Shown in pieces: positions 3,359 to 29,678 of a DNA stretch of 29,690 bases. The stretch is from a virus. A program made the position numbers and the translations under genes. Within the stretch, counting starts at the first letter, position 1. Each line of letters begins with the position of its first letter. The notes below the pieces were generated by a model, which made no database searches, was not told the origin of the DNA, and worked only from the letters and a program-made list of their open reading frames with translations. The DNA is taken from the IMG/VR virus record IMGVR_UViG_3300020160_002298, positions 1-29,690 of that record; one strand, given 5' to 3'.

Positions 3359-3748
3359 TTATATATTCTTTCTAAATTTTACCCAGACAAATCTTGTTCC
3401 ATGTAGAGGATTATTGAGACCTCCAGTATGATTATCTTGATATAATATAACATCAACATCATGATATTTTATTTTCACTTTCTCTATACAAACTTCTATC
3501 TCTTTATAAAAATCTGTTAGTTCTTCACTAATTTTTATAAACTTGTCTATACTATATTCTTCTAGTATTTCTAAATCAGGACAATTTATACCAAGACCAT
3601 GTTCAATATATTCATTAGTATTATCTGCTTCTTCATATACATCATACTTAGCATCATCATAGAACTCAATAAAACATTCTTTGATATATTCTTCATCAAA
3701 TTCAAACTTTTGATCAACATCTTCATTATATTGTTTTAAATGTTTCAT
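3359..3748 (-). CDS. Leader-bearing small protein, subfamily A
   Basis: A 129-residue acidic protein of unknown function and the last gene of its operon. It begins with the leader MKHLKQYNED, whose Asn8-Glu9 resembles the end of a prohead-protease cleavage site. The mature part has the subfamily A signature: YIKECFIEFYDD near residue 20, and FYKEIEVCIEKVKIKYHDVDV near residue 85, ending in beta strands. It overlaps the preceding gene by four bases. I infer a virion internal (head-packaged) protein from the leader and from co-transcription with a putative structural gene. Confidence 0.7.
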   Translation of the reverse strand: MKHLKQYNEDVDQKFEFDEEYIKECFIEFYDDAKYDVYEEADNTNEYIEHGLGINCPDLEILEEYSIDKFIKISEELTDFYKEIEVCIEKVKIKYHDVDVILYQDNHTGGLNNPLHGTRFVWVKFRKNI

Positions 3749-4191
3749 ATTTTTTCAACTACTATTTCTATTTTTAACATTTCAGTTGGAAATGTAAATT
3801 CTTCACTAATTATATCATTATATTCTATAATATCAGGAAAATGTTTTGAACTGGTTTTATCTTTAGGAGTAAATATTTTAATATTATTAATTTTATATTT
3901 TTCATTTAAAATTTCTAAAAATGGAACAACTTCATCTTTAACACTATCCCAAGTAAACTTTTTATTACGGGTTCCAAAACTTGCATAGCTATTCTTAATT
4001 GAAATTCGGTATTCTGAATCTGACAAGGTTGAATTATATGAAGAAGGATCTGATGGATTATAATGTCTAGTAACTACATTAATCTTAAATCCATCATCTA
4101 ATAAATATGCTAGATAATTTAAACAAAAGTTATTTAAAATCTTACTTTGTTCTGGCTCTTTACTTTCATTGAAATAAAATAAATGTTTCAT
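3745..4191 (-). CDS. Leader-bearing small protein, subfamily B
   Basis: A 148-residue protein beginning MKHLFYFNES, a leader with a predicted cut after Glu9. Its body has the subfamily B signature: CLNYLAYLLDDGFKINVV near residue 25, then KKFTWDSVKDEVVPFLEIL and KYKINNIKIF near residues 88-115. The same signature occurs in the gene at 5717-6109. The function is unknown. It overlaps its upstream neighbour at a shared start/stop base and its downstream neighbour by four bases, which indicates a single operon. Confidence 0.7.
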   Translation of the reverse strand: MKHLFYFNESKEPEQSKILNNFCLNYLAYLLDDGFKINVVTRHYNPSDPSSYNSTLSDSEYRISIKNSYASFGTRNKKFTWDSVKDEVVPFLEILNEKYKINNIKIFTPKDKTSSKHFPDIIEYNDIISEEFTFPTEMLKIEIVVEKI

Positions 4192-4577
4192 TATTCTTCT
4201 TCATCATTTTCATAAGTACCATCAAGTACAAATATAATTGTAATATAACCTTCTGGTGGCCATTGGTATTCAAAATGGGTTTCAATATCATATCTTATTG
4301 CAACTTTCTCTAAACAATTTTCTATCTCTTTATAAAACTCAGCAACTTCATCACCATGTCTTACAAATTCTGCAATACCTTTACTATAATCACCAAGTTC
4401 AGGTTCATCCATTGTTAATCTAAATGTAATTGATTCCCCATCATTAAGTTCCTCTGTAAATACACCATTATCACCTTCTCCAAGTTTATCATAAAACTCA
4501 ATAAAACAAAGTTTGATATACTCTATCATCTCATCTTTTCTCTCTAAACTCTCATTAAATTTTCTTAAATGTTTCAT
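4191..4577 (-). CDS. Leader-bearing small protein, subfamily A
   Basis: I place the start at 4577, giving MKHLRKFNES. An upstream in-frame ATG at 4589 would add four residues and overlap the previous gene, and would spoil the match to the other leaders. The protein has 128 residues. Subfamily A signatures are YIKLCFIEFYDKLGEGD and FYKEIENCLEKVAIRYDIE; the C-terminus is very acidic (YENDEEE). Function unknown; a packaged virion protein is inferred from the leader. Confidence 0.7.
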   Translation of the reverse strand: MKHLRKFNESLERKDEMIEYIKLCFIEFYDKLGEGDNGVFTEELNDGESITFRLTMDEPELGDYSKGIAEFVRHGDEVAEFYKEIENCLEKVAIRYDIETHFEYQWPPEGYITIIFVLDGTYENDEEE

Positions 4578-4578
4578 A

Positions 4579-4977
4579 TTATTCATCATATAAATATTTT
4601 CTAAATATTACTGAAATCTCAAATAGATTATCAGCATAGTATGTTTTTCTATCTGTTACAATTTCATAATTTATTTGATATTTAACTGCAACCTTTTCTA
4701 AACTATATTCTATTTCTTCTAGTATTTCTAACTCTCTTTTAGAACTTTCAATCAGTTCATTAATTTTAACTTTATCAGTCTTAAAACTACTTGAATAATT
4801 TTTTGGCATAGGTATTTTTATTTTTACAATAAACTCTTCCCAAGTAATTCTATGTTTTTCTTCTTCACCATAGTCAATAGTAGCACCTTTATCAATTAAG
4901 TCAACAAAACAACTAGTCAGATATTCTACATCCATTAACTCATCCTTGTTCTCATTAAATTTTATTAAATATTTCAT
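4579..4977 (-). CDS. Leader-bearing small protein, subfamily A
   Basis: A 132-residue protein starting MKYLIKFNENKDE, a variant leader with Asn after the predicted cut. Subfamily A signatures are YLTSCFVDLIDKGATIDYG and LEEIEYSLEKVAVKYQINYEI. The stretch between them is longer than in the paralogues and basic (KIKIPMPKNYSSSFKTDKVK). It is one base away from the downstream gene and shares a base with the upstream one. Function unknown. Confidence 0.7.
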   Translation of the reverse strand: MKYLIKFNENKDELMDVEYLTSCFVDLIDKGATIDYGEEEKHRITWEEFIVKIKIPMPKNYSSSFKTDKVKINELIESSKRELEILEEIEYSLEKVAVKYQINYEIVTDRKTYYADNLFEISVIFRKYLYDE

Positions 4978-5306
4978 TAGTTAACTATTTTTATTTGTAC
5001 TTCTCTCACATGTCCATCTTGGTTAGTTGCATAAATACATTCCAAATCTGGATATTTTATCATAACTTTCTCTATACAATTTTCCACATCTAAAAAGAAC
5101 TCATGAAGTTCTTTAGCAGATTTTATATTATCATCAAGTGAATAACCTGGTTCAAACCAACACTTAGGAACTTTTATATAAATATCATAAGCTTCTTCTG
5201 TAGAGTATGTTTTTGCACCATCATCTATGAATTCAATAAAACACTCATTAAAATAATTACAATCTAATTCTTCTTTACTTTCATTATACTTTCTTAAATG
5301 TCTCAT
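4977..5306 (-). CDS. Leader-bearing small protein, subfamily A (shortest copy)
   Basis: A 109-residue protein starting MRHLRKYNES, with the predicted cut after Glu9. Subfamily A signatures are YFNECFIEFIDDGAKTYS and FFLDVENCIEKVMIKYPDLECIY. The ECFIEFIDDGAK segment also resembles the YLAYLLDDGFK of subfamily B, which suggests that A and B are distant homologues. It overlaps the upstream gene by four bases. Function unknown. Confidence 0.7.
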   Translation of the reverse strand: MRHLRKYNESKEELDCNYFNECFIEFIDDGAKTYSTEEAYDIYIKVPKCWFEPGYSLDDNIKSAKELHEFFLDVENCIEKVMIKYPDLECIYATNQDGHVREVQIKIVN

Positions 5307-5710
5307 AAATCACTAACTAATTTTACATCATTATATGCAAGTTCTAAACATATTAATGAGTTTGAAACAGCATTAAATTGAATAATATCTACATTATAAA
5401 TCTCACTAATCTTTTCAATACCCTCTTCTATCTCATTCATTATCTCAATGAACTTTTTAAACTCTTCAATATTACATTGATCATAAAGACCTATATTAAA
5501 ATCTATGTTATATCCTTCAATATAAGAAGTCTGCATACCAATATTTGCAAAGAAATCATATAATCCATCTTTTTCAGTTTCTACTTCTGAATATATTTCA
5601 TAAATTCTATTAGACTTTATTAAATCAAAAGCATGTGCAAAACATTCATTAATAATGTCTTCTGTTAATATTCTTGTTTTGCTTTCATTATACCTTCTTA
5701 AATGTTTCAT
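5303..5710 (-). CDS. Leader-bearing small protein, divergent subfamily A
   Basis: A 135-residue protein starting MKHLRRYNES. The subfamily A pattern is still visible (IINECFAHAFDLIKSNRIYEI near residue 20, then IMNEIEEGIEKISEIYNVDII), although the body has diverged from its neighbours. It lies six bases after the upstream gene. Function unknown; head packaging is inferred from the leader. Confidence 0.7.
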   Translation of the reverse strand: MKHLRRYNESKTRILTEDIINECFAHAFDLIKSNRIYEIYSEVETEKDGLYDFFANIGMQTSYIEGYNIDFNIGLYDQCNIEEFKKFIEIMNEIEEGIEKISEIYNVDIIQFNAVSNSLICLELAYNDVKLVSDL

Positions 5711-5716
5711 AATTAA

Positions 5717-6109
5717 CTAATTTTTATCTATTACTACAATAATCTCTCTAAGATTATTTTCTATTGATACATCATCATTTAATATATCTTCTACATTACT
5801 ATATGAATATGTCCAACCAATACCAATAAAGGATTTTTTGTTGAAGACAATATGTTTTATTTTATAACTATTATTTAAAAGTTCTAAAAAGGGTATAAAG
5901 TCATCCTTTATCTGGTCCCATTTAAACTTACTCTTTTTAATACTAATTTTAATATAATGCTTTTTTATTCTACCATCATGACCATATTCTTCCACTTTAT
6001 CTTTAACATCTACTTCATAATCATCTAAAACATAAGCCAAATTGTTATTTATAAATAACTCAATCTCTTTTATCTCATTATAATTTTCAAATATCTTAAT
6101 ATATTTCAT
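5717..6109 (-). CDS. Leader-bearing small protein, subfamily B
   Basis: A 130-residue paralogue of the gene at 3745-4191. Its start, MKYIKIFENYNE, is a weaker form of the leader. Shared segments are NNNLAYVLDDYEVDV and SKFKWDQIKDDFIPFLELL followed by YKIKHIVF. The start codon shares a base with the stop codon of the putative virion gene upstream, so the two are transcribed together. Function unknown. Confidence 0.7.
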   Translation of the reverse strand: MKYIKIFENYNEIKEIELFINNNLAYVLDDYEVDVKDKVEEYGHDGRIKKHYIKISIKKSKFKWDQIKDDFIPFLELLNNSYKIKHIVFNKKSFIGIGWTYSYSNVEDILNDDVSIENNLREIIVVIDKN

Positions 6110-6897
6110 TACCTCTTAACCATCACAAACCAAGAAGAGTTTGATTGTCCTTTTATTTCTTCTTCAACTTCTTTAATCTCTGCTTGACCCTGTGTAATCA
6201 AGTTTGCATGATTAATTTTTACATTTCCAGGCAAAACGAAATCATACATACCCATCATATTCCCTAATTGAACTTTGGCCCAACCAACACAAAACTTAAA
6301 GAATAAGTCATCTTTGAATAGATTTTCTTGTGGTATATTAGCATAAGCTTCAATAATAACATCATGTTTAACTTTAGTTAAAATATGTAATCTATGGTTT
6401 AACTGATTAAAAGAGTGTCTAAGTGTATATTTATTCAACTGGTTTAACATATCAGACATATTATCTAATAATGTTTTATAAACTCCTAACTCTCCAATTG
6501 TTGTCACATAAGAAGATAAGTAAGGTTGATTAGTAACCCCTAAGTTTACAGATAAGTTTGGTGAATTAATACCTAATTGAAAAAGTGATGCACTTCTTAC
6601 TTCATATAAATAAACAACAGATTGAATTTCACAAGGAACATTAACATAATTATACTTAGTAAACTCTTCTGTAAAGAAAGCTTCTTTTTTAATTAGATAA
6701 TATATCTTCTGAACAGCATACTGATAATTTCTATAAAACCAAGGCAATGCTCTTGTTTCAATTATCTGGCGTAAGTTAGCATCAGGTAATGTTTTAGGCA
6801 AAGCACAAGATACACTAATCTCTGTTTGTACTAAATCAATAAACTCATCTATTGTCCAACCACCTTGAAATGGAATATAATCTGCACTATCTGCCAT
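6109..6897 (-). CDS. Putative virion structural (neck/connector-type) protein
   Basis: The first gene of the leftward operon, 262 residues, without the MKHL leader. The C-terminal half contains LPGNVKINHANLITQGQ followed by EIKEVEEEIKGQSNSSW. I associate this ending and the middle segment (FQLGINSPNLSVNLGV) with virion proteins of large tailed phages, but from memory and without a named family. The N-terminus is helical (TIDEFIDLVQTEISVSCALP). The upstream bases on this strand (TATAAAATATATAAAAAT) are AT-rich enough for a late-type promoter, which is unproven. It heads a series of leader-bearing proteins, which fits late expression. Confidence 0.45.
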   Translation of the reverse strand: MADSADYIPFQGGWTIDEFIDLVQTEISVSCALPKTLPDANLRQIIETRALPWFYRNYQYAVQKIYYLIKKEAFFTEEFTKYNYVNVPCEIQSVVYLYEVRSASLFQLGINSPNLSVNLGVTNQPYLSSYVTTIGELGVYKTLLDNMSDMLNQLNKYTLRHSFNQLNHRLHILTKVKHDVIIEAYANIPQENLFKDDLFFKFCVGWAKVQLGNMMGMYDFVLPGNVKINHANLITQGQAEIKEVEEEIKGQSNSSWFVMVKR

Positions 6898-6939
6898 AAA
6901 TTTTTATATATTTTATAGTATATATTAAAAATAAAATGC

Positions 6940-7163: not shown

Positions 7164-7294
7164 AAAATTCTCTCTATCTTTTTCTTACGAGAGATATTTT
7201 TATCAAGTTTAACTTCAACCCAATCATATACAAAAGTGTACATGATTGGATCTTCTGTTACTGGATCACAACTAACTACATACTTCTTAGACAT
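7142..7294 (-). CDS. Small protein with RxKKIxxIL-type C-terminus (50 aa)
   Basis: A 50-residue protein beginning [20 protein letters not shown] and ending in [16 protein letters not shown]. The IERIL segment fits the C-terminal tail motif found on many other proteins in this window. Its start codon overlaps the end of dnaJ (ATGTCTAA), so it is the last gene of the grpE-dnaJ operon and may be translationally coupled to dnaJ. Function unknown. Confidence 0.65.
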
Positions 7295-8336
7295 TAAAAT
7301 TACTTGAGTTTTTCAACTTTTCTAATACATATCTTTCATCCATTGATACATTAGTTGGTACTTTAACTTTCAAGTTGATAATTAAATCACCTAATCCATA
7401 ATTAATATCTGGAATACCTTTACCATGCATTCTTGTTATTGTACCTGGTTGAGTTCCTGGTTGAATTGTAACAACAATTTCTCCATGTGGTGTATTAACT
7501 TTTACATTAGCACCCATAATGGCATCAAGAACAGATATTTCTTTTTCAATTATAAGATTACCACCTTCTCTTTTGAAAGTATAATCTCTAATTTCATCTA
7601 TAATAATTTGTAAGTCACCATTAATACCATCACGAATTGCATTACCAAAACCATGCATAGTTAATTGAATACCATTTGATACTCCTTTAGGTATTTCTAC
7701 ATCAACTGTTTGTTCAGTTAAAGTAGTACCATCACCATTACAAGAATTACATTTGTTATGAACAATCTTACCAGTCATATTACAATCAGGACATCCTGTT
7801 TCAGTTCTCATTTGTCCAAATGGTGTATTTTGAGTAACTATTCTTCTACCTCTACCACCACAAGGAATACAATCTCTTACATCAGATCCACCTTTACCAG
7901 AACAAGGTTTACAAGTTTCCTGTCTTTTATATTTTAGTTTCTTTGTACAACCATCAATGATTTCATTAATAGTTAAGGAAACCTTAATTCTTAGATCTCC
8001 ACCCTTTGATTGTCTTCTTTGATGTGGATTACCTCTTGAACCAAATATATCTCCAAATTGACTGAAAATATCATCCATATTGAATCCACCAAAACCCCCA
8101 CCAAAACCTCCTTGTTGTGGTTCTGTAGTTCCAAATCTATCATAATTAGATTTTTTATCTGGTGTAGAAAGAACATCATATGCTTCAGCTACTTCCTTAA
8201 ACTTTGCTTCAGCACTTTCATCACCAGGATTTTTATCAGGATGATATTTCATAGCCATTTTTCTATATGCTTTCTTAATATCATCTTCTGATGCCCCTCG
8301 ATCAACACCTAATACATTGTATAAATCTTTTGCCAT
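7287..8336 (-). CDS. dnaJ: DnaJ co-chaperone (Hsp40, type I)
   Basis: Stimulates the DnaK ATPase and delivers unfolded clients. The protein is a complete type I DnaJ of 349 residues: a J-domain with HPD at residues 32-34, a Gly/Phe region with [10 protein letters not shown], four zinc motifs ([32 protein letters not shown]), then two C-terminal beta domains with [16 protein letters not shown]. All key residues are present, so it should be active. It is transcribed leftward after grpE and an unknown gene. Its partner DnaK is about 3 kb away on the opposite strand. Confidence 0.97.
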
Positions 8337-8340
8337 ATTT

Positions 8341-8844
8341 TTATTTAATTAATTTTTTTAATTTTACTTCTCTAATTTCTTCTAAAATATTCTTACAATC
8401 ATAAGCATATTTGAATTGACCTGCAATATAATTATCTACCACAAGTGATAATGTTTCTGCAGTTCTATCTAAGTATTCCATACAACTCAATGAGTTTTTA
8501 ACCTTAGGTATAATATCCACAAAGTAATCTATGAAATGGTCTATATCAAATGATAATTGATATAAATCCAATCTATCAGATTTTAATATAGTTGGTGGTG
8601 TAACAAAATATTTACCATACAATCTTGTAATTGCTGGTAAAATTAAATCTAACATATCATCCTCACCTTCATAAAAAGGACCTTCAAATTCTTTGAATAA
8701 GTCTAATTTATTATCTAATACATATATAATAATATCTCTAAAATCAGAACTATGTGATTTTAACATACTTTCCAATGTATCAAGTAATTCTTCTCTCAAC
8801 ATTGGATCATCTCTTAAATCAAATATAGTTCTATCATCATTCAT
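8341..8844 (-). CDS. Hypothetical protein between grpE and dnaJ (167 aa)
   Basis: I do not recognise this protein. It is acidic and predicted to be largely helical ([43 protein letters not shown]), with no signal peptide or membrane segment. It sits two bases after grpE and four bases before dnaJ, so co-expression with the chaperones is very likely. A chaperone accessory or client role is possible but only guessed from context. Confidence 0.75.
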
Positions 8845-8846
8845 TA

Positions 8847-9284
8847 TTATCTACTTAGAACTATTTTAGGATATCTGAATGGTTTACCATTCAATGAGTA
8901 ACCTTTAGTTACAACATCAACTATTTTATTTTCACCTGTTTCTAATACAGATATTACTTCATGCAAGTCTTCATCATAGGTATCAGTTTGAATTGTTTGA
9001 ATACCTTGATTTTTCAAGAATGTTTCTAACTTTTGAGCAATAAGTAGTAAACCTTTATCTACTTTATCCATTGATTTAATTGCAATAGTTATATCACTAT
9101 CCATATCTAATACTGCTGATAACATTTTAGTTTTAGTGTTTAATACCAACTCTTCTTTTTCTTTTTGAACTCTTCTTTTATAGTTCTCAAACTCAGCATA
9201 AAGTCTAAGGTGTTTTTCCTCAGATTCTTTCAATTGGTCTTCAATTGAAATTTCTACTTGTTCTAAATTTTCTTTTTCTTCCAT
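8847..9284 (-). CDS. grpE: GrpE nucleotide-exchange factor
   Basis: Releases ADP from DnaK. The protein has 145 residues, short compared with cellular GrpE (about 170-200) because its N-terminal tail is brief. The signature helix LRLYAEFENYKRRVQKE is at residues 27-43, followed by the long coiled helix. The C-terminal beta domain ends in the typical GYSLNGKPFRYPKIVLSR. It lies one base after the upstream unknown gene and two bases before the next. Confidence 0.95.
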   Translation of the reverse strand: MEEKENLEQVEISIEDQLKESEEKHLRLYAEFENYKRRVQKEKEELVLNTKTKMLSAVLDMDSDITIAIKSMDKVDKGLLLIAQKLETFLKNQGIQTIQTDTYDEDLHEVISVLETGENKIVDVVTKGYSLNGKPFRYPKIVLSR

Positions 9285-11326: not shown

Positions 11327-13219
11327 ATGAACAAAAATGATGTAATCGTAGGAATTGATCTTGGAACTACCAACTCAGCTATTGCTATTGTACAAGGTGG
11401 TGAGCCAATTGTAATTTCAAACTCAGAAGGTAAAAGAACAACACCTTCAATTGTAGGATTCACTAAAGAAGATAGAAAAGTAGGTGATCCTGCAAAGAGA
11501 CAAGCAGTTACTAATCCTGAAAAAACTGTTTTCTCAATAAAAAGATTTATAGGTAAAGATTATTCTTCATTGAAAGATGAAGCAAAAAGAGTACCTTATA
11601 AAGTAGAAAAAACTGGTAAGAATGTACCAGGTGTAAGAATTGATGATAGAGTTTATACTCCACAAGAAATTTCTGCAATGATTCTACAGAAAATGAAAAA
11701 AACTGCTGAGGACTATTTAGGTCATGAAGTAACAAGAGCAGTTATTACAGTTCCTGCTTACTTTGGTGATGCAGAAAGAACTGCTACTATTGAAGCTGGT
11801 GAAATTGCTGGTTTAAAAGTAGAAAGAATTATCAATGAACCTACAGCAGCAGCATTGGCTTATGGTTTAGATAAAAAACAAACAGAATCTAAAATCTTAG
11901 TATTTGACTGTGGTGGGGGAACTCATGATGTGTCTGTATTAGAAATTGGTGATGGTGTATTTGAAGTTAAATCTACTGATGGTGATACTCACTTAGGTGG
12001 TGATGATTTTGATAATGCTATTATCAACTGGATGATTGAAGATTTCAAATCAGAAAGTGGTGTTGATTTATCTCAAGATATGATGGCATTACAAAGATTA
12101 AAAGAAGCTGCAGAAAAAGCTAAGATTGAATTATCTTCTTCTTCTCAAACTGATATTAATCTTCCTTATATCACTTCAAGAGACAATCAACCTTTACACT
12201 TTGTTAAACAATTAACTAAAGCTAAGTTTGACCAAATGACAAGTTCATTAGTTGAAAGAGCTATTAATTGTGCAAAATCTGCTCTTAAAAATGCTAAATT
12301 AAATACAGGTGATATTGATGAAGTTATCTTGGTTGGTGGTTCTACAAGAATCCCAGCAGTTCAAGAAGCTATTGAAAAATTCATTGGTAAGAAAGCAAAC
12401 AAATCTGTTAATCCAGATGAAGTTGTTGCATTAGGAGCAGCTATTCAAGGTGCAGTATTAAATGGTGGTATTAGTGATGTTCTTTTATTAGATGTTACTC
12501 CATTATCATTAGGTATTGAAACAATGGGTGGTGTATTCACTAAATTAATTGAGGCAAACACAACTATTCCTACAAGAAAAAGTGAAACATTTTCAACTGC
12601 TTCTGATAACCAATCTTCTGTAGAAATTCATTGTCTTCAAGGTGAAAGACCTATGGCAAAAGACAATCGTTCTTTAGGTAGATTCCACTTAGATGGTATT
12701 CCACCTGCACCAAGAGGTATTCCACAAGTTGAAGTAACATTAGATATTGATGCTAATGGTATCTTATCTGTAACTGCAAAAGATAAAGCTACTGGAAAAG
12801 AAAACAAAATTAGAATTGAAGGTGGTTCTCAATTATCTAAAGAAGAAATTGAGCAAATGAAAGCAGATGCAGAAGCTAATGCAGAAGCTGACAGAATTGA
12901 AAGAGAATTAGTTGACAAACTTAATGGTGCAGACAACTTAATTTTTCAAACTGAGAAACAAATGAAAGAGTTTGATGAAAAATTAACTGATGAAGACAGA
13001 GAAGCTCTAAAAGCTGATTTAGAAACATTAAAAGAAGCACATTCTCAAAAAGATGTGACTAAAGTTGATGAAGCATCAAATAAATTAAATGAAACTTGGG
13101 GAGGTATTAGTACAAGACTTTACCAACAAACAGAAACAGAATCACAACCTGAGCAACCTGTAAATGAAGGAGACAACATTGAGGATGTTAGTTATGAAGA
13201 TGTAACAGAAGAGAAGTAA
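11327..13219 (+). CDS. dnaK: DnaK chaperone (Hsp70)
   Basis: An ATP-driven chaperone, complete at 630 residues. The nucleotide-binding domain starts with [15 protein letters not shown] and includes [12 protein letters not shown] and the phosphate-2 motif. That motif reads [15 protein letters not shown] where most DnaK proteins have LGGGTFDVS: Phe is replaced by His while the catalytic Thr and Asp are kept. The linker is [16 protein letters not shown]. The substrate domain includes [14 protein letters not shown] and [12 protein letters not shown]. The lid ends in an acidic [12 protein letters not shown]. The substrate domain reads like Bacteroidota DnaK, which suggests acquisition from the host. 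It stands alone between an operator-like palindrome and a strong terminator. Confidence 0.98.
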
Positions 13220-14037: not shown

Positions 14038-14655
14038 TTAAATGTTACATGTTCCCTCACTTGCAGGTAAGTTAGATTCAATTCTAGTTTCAGGATATTC
14101 AATTCTAAGTTGCATTGAATATTTACCACCTTTATCAAGTATTACATTACATTCACACATCTCTTCAAAGGTTTCTTTTACCATCTCAAGATATTCATAA
14201 ACTTTTTCATTATCAAAAGGAGTTTTAGGTGTTTTTTGAATAATTATTGAATGTGCAGGTCTAATAGTTTCACCAATGAAATTATTATACCATCTTTTCA
14301 TAGCTATTAAACCTCTTACATCATCTCTTACTTCATTTCTATAATTAAAGTCTGTACTAGTTACATTTTTACCATCAACAACCCTAATTAATATATCTGT
14401 TATTTCAAAAGATAAGTTATCAATTAAATCTAAATCAAGTAATACCTCATTAATTTGCTGATGAGTTAATAAAAATTTAGATTCAAATCTTTCACAATAC
14501 TCATCAAGAAGTTCTTTTTCTTTATCTGTTAAAGGTCTTGAATTATAATCAAAACTAACTTGATGATTATTTAATATTTCATCTAACTCATCAAAAGAAT
14601 TTAACTCAGGTAAATCTTTATTCTCATTAATAAATTGAATATACTTCTTAATCAT
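14038..14655 (-). CDS. Leader-bearing protein (205 aa)
   Basis: It begins MIKKYIQFINENK. FINE (residues 8-11) ends in the hydrophobic-x-Glu pattern that prohead proteases cut. The body is unlike subfamilies A and B: an acidic helical N-terminal half (DELDEILNNHQ, TDKEKELLDEYCERF) and a C-terminal half with a helix (EKVYEYLEMVKETFEEMCE) and strands (YSMQLRIEYPETRIE). The start codon shares a base with the stop of the upstream leader gene. Function unknown; a packaged virion protein is inferred. Confidence 0.7.
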   Translation of the reverse strand: MIKKYIQFINENKDLPELNSFDELDEILNNHQVSFDYNSRPLTDKEKELLDEYCERFESKFLLTHQQINEVLLDLDLIDNLSFEITDILIRVVDGKNVTSTDFNYRNEVRDDVRGLIAMKRWYNNFIGETIRPAHSIIIQKTPKTPFDNEKVYEYLEMVKETFEEMCECNVILDKGGKYSMQLRIEYPETRIESNLPASEGTCNI

Positions 14656-15293
14656 TATGTTTCTATTTCAAATTCTTCTTCTTCACCAAATTGGTCATCT
14701 AACTCAATTTTAAGATTAACAATAAACTCTTCATCTATTGTATTTGGATCAGTATTTCTTGTTATTTGTCCAATAACTTCTTGAGTTTCATTATCATACT
14801 TTTTAAATTTAATGAAACATTGTTTAATATCTTTTGTAGAAAAGTCTTTAGTTTTATCTTTAGGAATTGCATCTTTCATATTAATAGATATTAAAAGATT
14901 ATACCAGTTTTCATCATCAGAAAACTTAACCGTTAATGTATCATTAAGTAATGAACGTGTTGCTACTTCACAACTCTCAAGTCTTAAATTAAACTCTTTA
15001 AAAGTTGGACTATTACCATTTCTTTTCTTATTTAATTTAGCTTTCTTGATGTCATTTTCTTCCTCAGCTTGTTCATCATCACCACTTTCTTCAAACATTT
15101 TCTCTATTTTCTTTTTCATAGAAATTAAAAGAGAATCAACATATGATGCAGGAGTATCATTTCTTACTTCTGTAAATTCACCTGGTTCTTCCATAGGTGT
15201 TTGTTCTGTTTGACCTTCTGTAGGTGCCTGAGCTTGTACTTGAGCATCATCTTGTGCTTCAAGGATAAATTGGTTAAATCTTTGTATTTTCAT
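14655..15293 (-). CDS. Acidic, Gln-rich leader-bearing protein (212 aa)
   Basis: It begins MKIQRFNQFILEAQ. FILE/A (residues 9-13) fits the T4 gp21 prohead-protease site (hydrophobic-x-Glu followed by a small residue) better than any other leader here. A low-complexity Gln/Ala/Glu linker follows (QVQAQAPTEGQTEQTPMEEP), then an acidic stretch with a lysine patch (KKAKLNKKRNGN), and a folded C-terminal part (FNLRLESCEVATRSLL to EEFIVNLKIELDDQ). This resembles scaffold-like or internal head proteins in composition, but the function is unknown. Confidence 0.7.
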   Translation of the reverse strand: MKIQRFNQFILEAQDDAQVQAQAPTEGQTEQTPMEEPGEFTEVRNDTPASYVDSLLISMKKKIEKMFEESGDDEQAEEENDIKKAKLNKKRNGNSPTFKEFNLRLESCEVATRSLLNDTLTVKFSDDENWYNLLISINMKDAIPKDKTKDFSTKDIKQCFIKFKKYDNETQEVIGQITRNTDPNTIDEEFIVNLKIELDDQFGEEEEFEIET

Positions 15294-16842: not shown

Positions 16843-17286
16843 ACTTCTTTCTATAATCATTTCCTCTGGTGTTAGTAAACCTCTACCAAATAATTTAACT
16901 CTATCATCATATCTTTTCTTAACTCTCTCTGAAATTGGCACTGGTGCTCCTTCATCATCAATTCTAACAAATACCATTTTGGTTGAACAAACTAAATCCT
17001 GAGCCCCTGTATAAACATTATGTTTTCTAGCTTCAAGATTGATTGTAATAGATGTAGTACCTATCTTTTCAACACCACCATATATCTTAATTAGATTTCC
17101 TGTTTTAACAGGTCTTTGAAAAATTACTTCTTCAATCTTCTTTGTAACCATTCTTGGTGTATCACAAATCTGACAACAGTAAACTGCAGCAGACTCGTCG
17201 AGGATACTCATCATTTCACCGCCAAATAAATTTCCATGTACTCCTATCTGTGAGGCCATACATACTCTTGTTGTAATTAGTTCCAT
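16822..17286 (-). CDS. Acyl-CoA thioesterase (hotdog fold, YciA/BACH-like)
   Basis: Hydrolyses acyl-CoA to free fatty acid and CoA. The 154-residue hotdog domain has the family signature HGNLFGGEMMSILDESAAVYC, with His17, Gly22-Gly23 and the catalytic-site Asp30-Glu31. The later strands (VIFQRPVKTGNLIKIYG, TSITINLEARKHNVYTG) are also typical. It is the last gene of the long leftward run and shares a base with the gene upstream. The 5' third is visibly richer in G and C than the flanking genes (for example GACTCGTCGAGGATAC on the + strand), which suggests recent acquisition from a cell. Such an enzyme is unusual in a phage. Confidence 0.9.
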   Translation of the reverse strand: MELITTRVCMASQIGVHGNLFGGEMMSILDESAAVYCCQICDTPRMVTKKIEEVIFQRPVKTGNLIKIYGGVEKIGTTSITINLEARKHNVYTGAQDLVCSTKMVFVRIDDEGAPVPISERVKKRYDDRVKLFGRGLLTPEEMIIERSKKKEDK

Positions 17287-17750
17287 TATTGCAATATTTT
17301 ATTTATTTTCATTTCTCTTTCTTCATGCTTCTCAGTTATATCAGCATATCTCATTCTATAAAATACTTTAAGTGTTTTTAAATCAATGTATTTACCTATA
17401 ACATATATAACTAATGTTCTACCATCTTTACCATCAAAGAACTCTTGTAATTCATCATCACTATTAAACTGAATAGGTTCACAATCTATAATTTTTGAGT
17501 GTGGTTTGTCATTTATAATATATTCTAATGTGAATCTAGGTAGTGCAGTTACATACTTTATCTTTGAATAATTATTAACTAAGAAATCATTTAACCATAA
17601 TGATACATCAAATGTAGCATATTGTATTCCTATACCTAAATCTTTACAATTATTTATAAGCTGCATAACTGCATCTAAACTATGATTATTAACAGGAATC
17701 AAATGAGATTTGCTTATTTGTACTGGATTATTTATTAAACTTGTAAACAT
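17286..17750 (-). CDS. Hypothetical protein with C-terminal KINKIL tail (154 aa)
   Basis: I do not recognise the body, a mixed alpha/beta protein (SLDAVMQLINNCKDLGIGIQ, RTLVIYVIGKYIDLKTLKVF). The C-terminus ends EEREMKINKILQ, a clear copy of the tail motif shared by other proteins in this run. It lies two bases from the dCMP deaminase gene. Confidence 0.7.
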   Translation of the reverse strand: MFTSLINNPVQISKSHLIPVNNHSLDAVMQLINNCKDLGIGIQYATFDVSLWLNDFLVNNYSKIKYVTALPRFTLEYIINDKPHSKIIDCEPIQFNSDDELQEFFDGKDGRTLVIYVIGKYIDLKTLKVFYRMRYADITEKHEEREMKINKILQ

Positions 17751-17752
17751 AA

Positions 17753-18163
17753 TTATATTTTTACTATTTCTACTCCTGCTTCTCTTAAAAACTCTACACC
17801 TGTAATGTCTTTATAATCTTCATGATAAACTAATCTCTTAATTCCTGATTGAAGAACTAATTTAGAACAGTCTTTACAAGGTGAATGTGTTTGGTATAAT
17901 GTTGCACCATCACAAGACTGACCATGTTTAGCACACTTTAATATAGCATTTGCTTCTGCATGAATAACAAACCAATTGGTATCATTATCAACTGTCTCAC
18001 AAGTGTTATCAAATCCAGTTGGTGTTCCATTGTAACCATCTGATACAATCATACCATTCTTAACTATTATAGCACCTACTTGTTTTCTTGTGCAATGTGA
18101 AAGAGTTGCCCATTCAGTTGCCATATTGAGATATACTCTATCATATCTATCTTGTTTATTCAT
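17753..18163 (-). CDS. cd: dCMP deaminase
   Basis: Converts dCMP to dUMP for thymidylate synthesis. The 136-residue protein has the full zinc site: His68 and Glu70 in HAEANA, and Cys96 and Cys99 in PCKDC. It also has the ComE-type N-terminal region with ATEWATLSHCTRKQVGAIIV and GYNGTPTGF. All catalytic residues are intact. It overlaps the tiny gene upstream by eight bases. Confidence 0.95.
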   Translation of the reverse strand: MNKQDRYDRVYLNMATEWATLSHCTRKQVGAIIVKNGMIVSDGYNGTPTGFDNTCETVDNDTNWFVIHAEANAILKCAKHGQSCDGATLYQTHSPCKDCSKLVLQSGIKRLVYHEDYKDITGVEFLREAGVEIVKI

Positions 18164-18329
18164 CTTTTAATATTCTTTTAATTTTAATCTTTCTATCTTT
18201 TGCTTTATCTTTTATTCCCAATATATTCTCCTGAACCCAATTAATAGAAAAGTGTTTACTATCCTCATATGATAATAGAAACTGTTTCATTAAAATAGCT
18301 TTCTTTTCTAGTTCATTAATCTTTTTCAT
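18156..18329 (-). CDS. Tiny basic protein with IKRIL tail (57 aa)
   Basis: A 57-residue protein beginning MKKINELEKKAILMKQFLLS and ending DRKIKIKRILKDE. It overlaps both neighbours (14 bases with the gene upstream, eight with dCMP deaminase), as expected for a real gene in a packed operon. The C-terminus carries the R-x-x-K-I-x-x-I-L tail. Function unknown. Confidence 0.65.
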   Translation of the reverse strand: MKKINELEKKAILMKQFLLSYEDSKHFSINWVQENILGIKDKAKDRKIKIKRILKDE

Positions 18330-18498
18330 TCAATATTCTATTAATTTTTTCCATCCTCATTTCTGATTTTGTATTATTAAAATAATTATACCATTGTTTT
18401 GATACTGTTATATAATTGGCTGAACCTCTAACACTACCTCTTGCAATTGTATTTGCTGCTTCATTTAGTTTAGATATTAATTCAGATTGTGTCATCAT
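18316..18498 (-). CDS. Small protein with KINRIL tail (60 aa)
   Basis: A 60-residue protein: SELISKLNEAANTIARGSVR, then GSANYITVSKQWYNYF, then the tail RMEKINRILNEKD. The start is ATGATG; the first ATG shares a base with the nusG stop (TAATG) and either codon could serve. Function unknown. Confidence 0.65.
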   Translation of the reverse strand: MMTQSELISKLNEAANTIARGSVRGSANYITVSKQWYNYFNNTKSEMRMEKINRILNEKD

Positions 18499-21397: not shown

Positions 21398-21799
21398 TTA
21401 TTTTAGTATGTCATTAATCTTTTTATCTCTATCTAATACTATTATTCTTTCTTCAATGAAAGCATCAATATCATAACCAAATGAGAATTGTTGTTTCTTT
21501 AATTCTAACCAGTAAGGTTTTCCTAATACATTTAATGTTGCAATAATTGATGCAGTTGATGCATCCATAAATGAACCACTTTCTACTTCATATTCTTCAC
21601 CAAGAATTACATAAGTTACTTTAGGTGTTTGTATAGTTGCTCCAGATCCCCAAGAACCATGACCATTACCATAAATTGCATTTACATTATTTCCTAATGT
21701 TATTGTACTATTTACCCAGTTTCCTGTTACATTTGATGTTCCTGTTGTAATATTTGTTCCTGTTAGTGAACCTAAACCTGACTTTGTTTTTTTTGCCAT
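21398..21799 (-). CDS. Hypothetical protein with KKINDIL tail (133 aa)
   Basis: I do not recognise it. The N-terminal third is Gly/Ser/Thr/Asn-rich low complexity (SGLGSLTGTNITTGTSNVTG and GNGHGSWGSG). A compact beta-helix part follows (VTYVILGEEYEVESGSFMDA), and it ends VLDRDKKINDILK, one of the clearest copies of the shared tail. It sits between rnh and an unknown gene. Confidence 0.7.
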   Translation of the reverse strand: MAKKTKSGLGSLTGTNITTGTSNVTGNWVNSTITLGNNVNAIYGNGHGSWGSGATIQTPKVTYVILGEEYEVESGSFMDASTASIIATLNVLGKPYWLELKKQQFSFGYDIDAFIEERIIVLDRDKKINDILK

Positions 21800-24640: not shown

Positions 24641-24781
24641 ATGTTAGATAAATATGCTCCTGTAGGAACTAAAGATTGTGAATCACAATGTGAACGTAAG
24701 GTTGTAATGACACCGGATGGCCCTGTTATTGTTTGTGATGGTTGTGATAGAATTGTAATGGATAATAGAAAAGATAAGTAA
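24641..24781 (+). CDS. Zinc-ribbon-like microprotein (46 aa)
   Basis: I choose the ATG at 24641 because a TATCTTTG promoter box ends 17 bases upstream; the longer frame from 24554 would run through that promoter and encode a spurious hydrophobic segment. The 46 residues contain two Cys pairs, C-x3-C (CESQC) and C-x2-C (CDGC), separated by 18 residues, like a small zinc ribbon. The stop shares a base with the next start (TAATG). Confidence 0.65.
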   Translation: MLDKYAPVGTKDCESQCERKVVMTPDGPVIVCDGCDRIVMDNRKDK

Positions 24782-25161
24782 TGAAGTACATTAAAGGATG
24801 GGTTCATGACTCATTTGCAAAAACTCACTATTATGAATTTAATATGGATTTTACAATGGTTGTTTGTAAAGATGTTAGATATTATGGTATAGATGATTAT
24901 GATAAAGAATGTTATGGTATAGATTTTGAGAAAGATTACATTATGTGTGTTAAATTCTTCAAAACTAAACAAGAATCCAGTGCATATGTTTACTTAGAAG
25001 GGTTTTATGATTCAAATGGAATTTATAATGAAGTTAACCAAGAAACTATAATGAGTAGAGAATTTATTTCAGCAAACTCAGAAGAAGTTGGTGGTAAATT
25101 ATTAGTTGATATAACAAAGAAGTTTAATAGAGATAAAAAAATAGATTTAATTTTAGAATGA
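24781..25161 (+). CDS. Hypothetical protein with KKIDLIL tail (126 aa)
   Basis: I do not recognise the body, a mainly beta protein rich in Tyr and Asp (KDVRYYGIDDYDKECYGIDF). It ends FNRDKKIDLILE, a clear copy of the shared C-terminal tail. It is coupled by base-sharing overlaps to both neighbours in the rightward operon. Confidence 0.7.
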   Translation: MKYIKGWVHDSFAKTHYYEFNMDFTMVVCKDVRYYGIDDYDKECYGIDFEKDYIMCVKFFKTKQESSAYVYLEGFYDSNGIYNEVNQETIMSREFISANSEEVGGKLLVDITKKFNRDKKIDLILE

Positions 25162-26618: not shown

Positions 26619-26969
26619 ATGAAAAGAAGTAAAATTTTATATAAAGTAGATCTTAAAGATTGTCAAGAATATGGCTTTGATGTCAAACTTGCAACAGTTG
26701 GGGTTTTTGAAACAGATAAAGTTAGCTGGAAGTATTATGTTGTATCATACTATAAAAATAATGACAATGTGGTAAAAACCTCTACTGATATATGTGGTAG
26801 ACCTGGAGAGGAACTAACAAATTCAACAGTTGAGAGATATGGCAAAGAGTTTAAAACCACCGATGAATGTAAAGAATTTATTGATACTTATAAAATTAAA
26901 TGGGAAACAGGTTCAAACTCTACCTTAGAAGAAAAAAGAGATAAAAAATTAAATGATTTAGGGATATGA
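26619..26969 (+). CDS. Hypothetical protein with RDKKLNDLGI tail (116 aa)
   Basis: I do not recognise the body, a mixed alpha/beta protein (VGVFETDKVSWKYYVVSYYK). It ends LEEKRDKKLNDLGI, a variant of the shared tail in which the final I-L is replaced by L-G-I. The promoter leaves almost no 5' leader, so translation may be leaderless. It overlaps the next gene by four bases. Confidence 0.7.
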   Translation: MKRSKILYKVDLKDCQEYGFDVKLATVGVFETDKVSWKYYVVSYYKNNDNVVKTSTDICGRPGEELTNSTVERYGKEFKTTDECKEFIDTYKIKWETGSNSTLEEKRDKKLNDLGI

Positions 26970-29066: not shown

Positions 29067-29093
29067 AAAAAACCACTCATTGAGTGGTTTTTT
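29067..29093. terminator. Bidirectional terminator
   Basis: Stem AAAAAACCACTC / GAGTGGTTTTTT with a three-base loop, between convergent genes. Its core matches the terminator at 3334-3357, which likewise precedes a leader-protein operon. Confidence 0.85.
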
Positions 29094-29446
29094 TATTCTT
29101 CTATATCAAGTTCTTTCTGAACTACATAAATTGCAAAGTCTTTTAAATTTCCATTTTTACAATATGAATCAAATCTATCTTCATCTATATTAATTACAAA
29201 GAACTCTTCCATTTCAGTATATTTAGTAGTAATTTCATCTTTACTATCAATTATTTCATAGAATTCTTTTTGTAATTCAGAATCATCTGGTAACATCTTA
29301 TCAATCTTATCATATGCCATTGCATAACAATCTTCTAAGTTAGTATCTACTTCTTCTTCATTATCATCTTCTATATTATTATCAAAATGTGGGTGCCACC
29401 ACTTACCTAATTCCTCAGACTCATTAAATCTTTTTAAGTATTTCAT
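29093..29446 (-). CDS. Leader-bearing acidic protein (117 aa)
   Basis: It begins MKYLKRFNESEE, with a predicted cut after Glu9. The body is very acidic (NNIEDDNEEEVDTNLEDCYA) with a helical core (DSELQKEFYEIIDSKDEI) and unlike subfamilies A and B except for a Cys in a similar early helix. It lies one base after its upstream neighbour and ends at the terminator. Function unknown. Confidence 0.7.
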   Translation of the reverse strand: MKYLKRFNESEELGKWWHPHFDNNIEDDNEEEVDTNLEDCYAMAYDKIDKMLPDDSELQKEFYEIIDSKDEITTKYTEMEEFFVINIDEDRFDSYCKNGNLKDFAIYVVQKELDIEE

Positions 29447-29447
29447 A

Positions 29448-29678
29448 TTATATACAAGTTATTTTTACACTATTGGTTTCCCAAGTATCTCCCATTTCAG
29501 CTTCATCAAGAAACTCTGCAAGAGTTTGTTCTGTATTATCATCTTCCTCACTAAGGTCCCAAGTTCTTTCAATATCACTTTTACCAAGTCTTGCTTTAGC
29601 ACCTCTACCAGATAAATCTTTTACCATGAACTCTTTTTCCTGAGATTCTGATTCATTAAATTTTCTTAAATGTTTCAT
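29448..29678 (-). CDS. Leader-bearing small protein (76 aa)
   Basis: It begins MKHLRKFNESES, the exact consensus leader. The 76-residue protein then has a basic segment (VKDLSGRGAKARLGKSDIER) and an acidic C-terminal half (DLSEEDDNTEQTLAEFLDEA). It is the first visible gene of a leader-protein operon that probably continues beyond the window. Function unknown. Confidence 0.7.
   Translation of the reverse strand: MKHLRKFNESESQEKEFMVKDLSGRGAKARLGKSDIERTWDLSEEDDNTEQTLAEFLDEAEMGDTWETNSVKITCI

Follow-up and report, generated by a model that had tools for sequence, protein, structure and literature searches.

We propose that a short leader at the N-termini of many small proteins from a lineage of giant phages is very likely a capsid-targeting sequence of the kind used by phage T4, with the presence of these proteins in virions, their cutting and their injection being inferred. 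The leader was predicted in the 29,690-base viral record IMGVR_UViG_3300020160_002298 (the window, meaning this whole stretch of DNA), and all features by which this reading can be tested on sequence, namely a genome-wide leader, a protease in relatives, a common cut motif, promoters of the head-gene type, chimeras, and leaders in cultured relatives, spoke in its favor. The window is related to two complete genomes of uncultured phages, LR745206.1 (634,780 bp; W01) and LR756502.1 (642,428 bp; W02). The study that described them assigned its five genomes of more than 634 kb to the Mahaphage clade and predicted Bacteroidetes hosts for them (PMC7162821). Both W01 and W02 were taken whole, and their genes were called with a simple caller based on codon usage; the leader counts given for them are approximate on account of this caller, which overlooked at least one leader owing to a wrong start.

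The leader and the proteins behind it

All eleven leaders claimed for the window were found, with every start on the minus strand, and in 11/11 a hydrophobic-x-Glu motif closes the leader. They occur in two flavors, of which one (MK[HY]L[KR]x[FY]NE/S-like) is present in nine genes and the other in two. Seven of the genes form a block that constitutes a single operon, with gene ends that overlap or nearly touch, behind a first gene coding for an Ad2-like head-tail adaptor (6109-6897, minus strand; phrog_211, E 1.3e-11), and a predicted late promoter, TTTTAATATATA (6919-6930, minus strand), lies 21 nt before the adaptor ATG. Proceeding from the adaptor, the leaders of this block are MKYIKIFENYNE/I (gene 5717-6109, leader 6074-6109), MKHLRRYNE/S (5303-5710, leader 5684-5710), MRHLRKYNE/S (4977-5306, leader 5280-5306), MKYLIKFNE/N (4579-4977, leader 4951-4977), MKHLRKFNE/S (4191-4577, leader 4551-4577; an internal start in an ORF that opens with MMNN at 4589), MKHLFYFNE/S (3745-4191, leader 4165-4191) and MKHLKQYNE/D (3359-3748, leader 3722-3748). 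The same flavor recurs as MKYLKRFNE/S (29093-29446, leader 29420-29446) and MKHLRKFNE/S (29448-29678, leader 29652-29678), and the second flavor is represented by MIKKYIQFINE/N (14038-14655, leader 14623-14655) and MKIQRFNQFILE/A (14655-15293, leader 15258-15293). Several of the bodies had been described as unrelated, which does not hold for the block 3359-5710: five or six of its genes, that at 3359-3748 among them, belong to a single, fast-evolving paralogous family. W01 has 27 copies of it and W02 has 43, most of which bear the leader. Elsewhere in the window, at 7287-9284 and 11327-13219, lie genes that read as the phage's own DnaJ, GrpE-like and DnaK chaperones.

A search of full genomes with a leader profile had been suggested as a check; run on W01 and W02, it finds about 140 genes in each (16%), far above chance. 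Detection relied on a mixture PSSM over residues 2-12 at LLR>3, with a stricter set at LLR>6. At LLR>3 it recovers 120/871 genes of W01, 134/878 of W02 and 8/53 of the window, a total of 262 matches, where column-permuted controls average 21.5, and only 3/6525 windows placed at internal Met residues pass; 115 genes of W01 and 126 of W02 remain at LLR>6. Beyond this stricter set the second flavor, MIKKYxxFINES, adds 24 genes in W01, 17 in W02 and 2 in the window, with about 1.2, about 1.2 and 0 expected, respectively. Furthermore, the triplet [FY]NE at residue 7 is observed 57 times in W01 and W02, against 0.9 expected.

The 249 bodies fall into 184 BLAST groups and are small, acidic (median pI of the leader proteins 5.2) and mostly of unknown function, the majority being without a Pfam or PHROG match; annotated exceptions include NUDIX, nucleotidyl cyclase, lysozyme, SET, GNAT, HNH and RNA ligase 1. 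The sequence of one leader protein resembles the TOPRIM portion of a primase family, which hints that some leader proteins may work in replication. A leader-bearing RNA ligase 1-like protein was seen in both genomes (W01 470485, W02 491690). T4 RNA ligase 1 mends tRNA cut by the host, and early delivery of a body like this would make sense for that reason. Comparison of the fold of the paralogous body family with PDB and BFVD yielded nothing at E<=0.001, and relatives of the bodies of 4579-4977 and 14655-15293 were not found when these were scanned against viral contigs. Orthology between W01 and W02 extends to 36/115 (31%) and 34/126 (27%) of the leader genes, against 383/771 and 385/767 (50%) of the others. 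Leader flavors are swapped between orthologs with conserved bodies, as in W01_363366 and W02_385200 (83.5% identical).

Cut site, protease and capsid protein

Constraint on the leader is strongest at residues 3, 4 and 7, with relative entropies of 2.3 bits at residue 4 and 2.6 bits at residue 7. Packaging of T4 IPIII requires no more than its ten N-terminal residues; according to mutagenesis, residues 4 and 7 serve in targeting, whereas residues 8 and 10 serve in processing (PMC9026906). A hydrophobic-x-E motif lies within residues 6-20 of 194/249 leaders; the 55/249 without a clean instance there count against a leader that is cut. Over residues 5-32 the motif is found in 239/262 leader genes as against 851/1527 other genes, and in the 78-row alignment of the body family E9 is the sole nearly invariant column apart from M1. 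A single AF2 model of the 4977-5306 protein predicts a disordered leader (pLDDT <50 at residues 1-3 and 5-9; 82-97, as ten-residue means, for the rest) followed by a confident alpha-beta-beta-alpha-beta-beta domain. A membrane signal peptide was excluded as the leader has no hydrophobic core.

The original prediction also looked to a gp21-like protease, and this was borne out in the relatives but not in the window, a 29.7 kb fragment that does not include such a gene, a gap that counts against the reading. Peptidases of the S77 type were recovered from 6/8 large relatives, all below the cut-off, and from 7/8 further phages, six of them over it; the scores of the nearest relatives fall under the Pfam cut-off, and the Pfam S78 protease gave no matches. 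In the Mahaphage clade the protease is fused to the scaffold: all 60 unique fusion proteins keep the His/Ser motifs GEFDHP and VSSR, and each has 9-14 repeated Y-[ILV]-A-E sites and 50-61 hydrophobic-x-E sites, compared to about 30 after shuffling. The BLASTP alignment of T4 gp21 with the fusion protease spans both catalytic motifs.

The gene after this fusion codes for a gp23-like major capsid protein (MCP), in which S-I-N-E/N is invariant in 78 relatives and occupies the same position as the T4 gp23 cut F-L-T-E/A. The MCP of Sphingomonas phage PAU retains 520 mature residues of 585, as determined by N-terminal sequencing (PMC5646251); the reported cut falls within one residue of L-M-E64/N65, and its position one residue past the Glu counts against an exact match. 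In two short chimeric proteins, W01 93266 and W02 80294, the leader is followed by a duplicate of the mature MCP N-arm, with the junction at E/N or E/D. We also observed that the hypothetical T4 protein gp61.1 (AF158101.6, 18966-19130) reads as a capsid-targeting leader that precedes a duplicate of the mature N-arm of gp23, like the megaphage chimeras.

Promoters, operons and a C-terminal tag

Operon-first leader genes are preceded by a box, TTAATATATA. We found AATATATA at 85% of 94 leader operon heads and at 84% of 19 second-flavor heads, which had been left out when the box was derived; elsewhere it is present at 15% of 13 replication genes, 4% of 51 genes with the C-terminal tag discussed below and 26% of others. 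The late box also precedes the portal, sheath, protease and adaptor genes, with structural operon heads having the exact 8-mer in 4/9 and a relaxed core in 9/9 cases; as a caveat, the motif is AT-rich within an AT-rich genome. Its end lies 4-7 nt before the ATG in 64/90 operon-first leader genes (71%) and 14/18 of the second flavor, which predicts leaderless late mRNAs, and at least 16 nt upstream in the few structural genes identified. Late expression together with the head genes rests on this common promoter motif and on the adaptor operon, that is, on sequence only and without transcript data; phmmer did not find the T4 gp55 late sigma factor in W01 or W02. At the site behind the adaptor W01 has six leader genes, and other relatives have from none to six within 4.5 kb of it; given this variation in number, we interpret the site as a variable cassette.

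Synonymous codon choice at residues 8-12 shows the variation usual for the genome, with some bias in codons 2-6; furthermore, operon-internal genes that have no promoter retain the leader, which is missing from several genes that do have a close promoter. Because the codons vary and the leader and promoter occur apart, we infer that selection acts on the leader peptide. An element at the DNA level was rejected on the codon variation at residues 8-12 and the leaders of operon-internal genes.

We also observed a second shared tag, of unknown function, at the C-terminus (R-[DEN]-x-K-[IL]-[ND]-x-[IL]-L). It was counted in 77/880 genes of W01, 59/888 of W02 and 5/56 of the window, with <0.6 expected in each; in the window it is seen at 17286-17750, 18156-18329, 18316-18498, 21398-21799, 24781-25161 and 26619-26969, among others. 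It occurs zero times or once in T4, PTm1, pT24, PAU, MA9V-2 and MaF61, and likewise in the sampled parts of Lak-B5, LR756501 and LR756500. No gene has both this tag and the leader, against 18.5 expected (P 9e-10). In W01 and W02, TAnnTTTG, the host promoter box of Bacteroidota, stands upstream of 37% of these C-tail genes as against 7% of leader genes. Based on this enrichment and the rarity of the late box (4%), the C-tail genes may constitute an early class.

Known systems and competing explanations

The leader is comparable to that of T4 IPI, IPII and IPIII in comprising about ten N-terminal residues with the pattern MK-x-hydrophobic-x-x-aromatic, then hydrophobic-x-Glu/small residue; the T4 leader MKTYQEFIAEA, given in the original prediction, was verified in ipII and ipIII. 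Varied bodies, a gp21-type protease and a gp23-type capsid protein are likewise common to both systems. The megaphages differ in having about 140 such genes per genome versus a handful in T4, a leader mostly of 9-12 residues with H/Y3 and L4, a protease fused to a repeat scaffold, and acidic rather than basic leader proteins, the last of which counts against the reading. In the giant phages phiKZ and SPN3US head proteins are similarly cut after Glu and then ejected (PMC5694885; PMC9026906), but with A-x-E or S/A-x-E as the motif; propeptides in SPN3US often exceed 100 residues, and a common N-terminus occurs only in single paralog pairs. Phage PAU has a homologous MCP, an S77 protease and a leader on many small proteins, including gp154, annotated as 'internal capsid protein'; it differs in the leader sequence, in having about 20 such genes (about sevenfold fewer) and in its protease and scaffold being annotated as separate genes. 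Leaders of their own on the same plan are present in PAU (MKT[LI]xxLYEA), MA9V-2 (MKNFFxFINES) and LR756500 (MKYIxxYxDFLxE). A rule combining positions 4 and 7 with hydrophobic-x-E selects 5/241 genes in T4 (ipII, ipIII, gp61.1 and two others), 20 in PAU, 59 in W01 and 73 in W02, with near zero expected. The Mahaphage PSSM does not transfer to T4 or PAU, whereas this rule does, which we attribute to residue 3 being lineage-specific. An earlier description of the leader system was not found in the literature searched, and a 2026 jumbo-phage review is silent on capsid targeting. The principle is already known; what is new is the scale, a scaffold fused to the protease that would shred it, and the connection with a class of late promoters.

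We posit that leader residues 1-7 (M-[KR]-[HY]-[LI]-[KR]-x-[FY]) would attach proteins made late to the scaffold of the prohead. Once the shell closes, the gp21-like protease would cut behind the terminal hydrophobic-x-Glu of the leader, releasing the folded body into the interior of the head, and would also shred its own fused repeat-rich scaffold. The freed proteins would remain with the DNA, and many of them would probably enter the Bacteroidota host when it is infected. Docking, cutting and packaging are inferred with high confidence; the injection of many leader proteins is a weaker inference, which we favor only slightly over its absence. The clade has no proteomics, which counts against the reading; packaging and cutting, well supported as they are, stand as inferences.

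The leader proteins could instead be targeted to the capsid and cut without being injected, serving as fillers or shape factors of the prohead core that stay structural or are degraded. We regard this as unlikely but a serious possibility, as T4 IPIII influences head morphogenesis (PMC9026906) and the bodies are small and mostly without known function. However, their high turnover, seen in the lower ortholog fractions, their variable cassettes and the presence of NUDIX, lysozyme, RNA ligase 1, nucleotidyl cyclase and SET bodies are together easier to reconcile with an arms race than with a structural role. A tag for localization or stability at another cell site, such as the membrane, the pole or a replication compartment, would be compatible with a short, basic-aromatic leader common to unrelated bodies and with its presence on a TOPRIM-domain protein; we consider this improbable given that the leader ends at the MCP cut motif, precedes the MCP N-arm directly in the chimeras and belongs to genes with the promoter type of head genes.

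Two further explanations both appear very improbable. In one, it would be a DNA or RNA element without protein function, either a promoter and start that move as one cassette or a signal for the translation of leaderless late mRNAs, as might be read from the close spacing of the late box and ATG and from the bias in codons 2-6. Such an element would explain neither the same leader in operon-internal genes, including the window block, nor its absence from several genes with an equally close promoter, nor the ordinary codon variation at residues 8-12. The other, which we credit least of all, invokes plain common descent of paralogs that diverged except at the N-terminus; the one large, mostly leader-bearing body family agrees with this, whereas the number of BLAST groups among the bodies, the exchange of flavors over conserved bodies and the leaders on known enzyme families do not.

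Returning to the capsid-targeting leader, about one gene in six is labeled, and the particle may carry more than 100 different cargo proteins. A fuller picture, in which more than 100 proteins are packed per head by one label and injected as a mixed arsenal, with the C-terminal label marking an opposite, early class, is tentative and in our estimate falls a little short of even. The leader provides a sequence rule by which the proteins that the largest known phages package, for the most part without known function, can be named. Well over 100 anonymous genes in each genome thereby become candidates that can be tested for roles in host takeover and counter-defense. For Bacteroidota phages, the leader also suggests an address that is ready for use with cargo.
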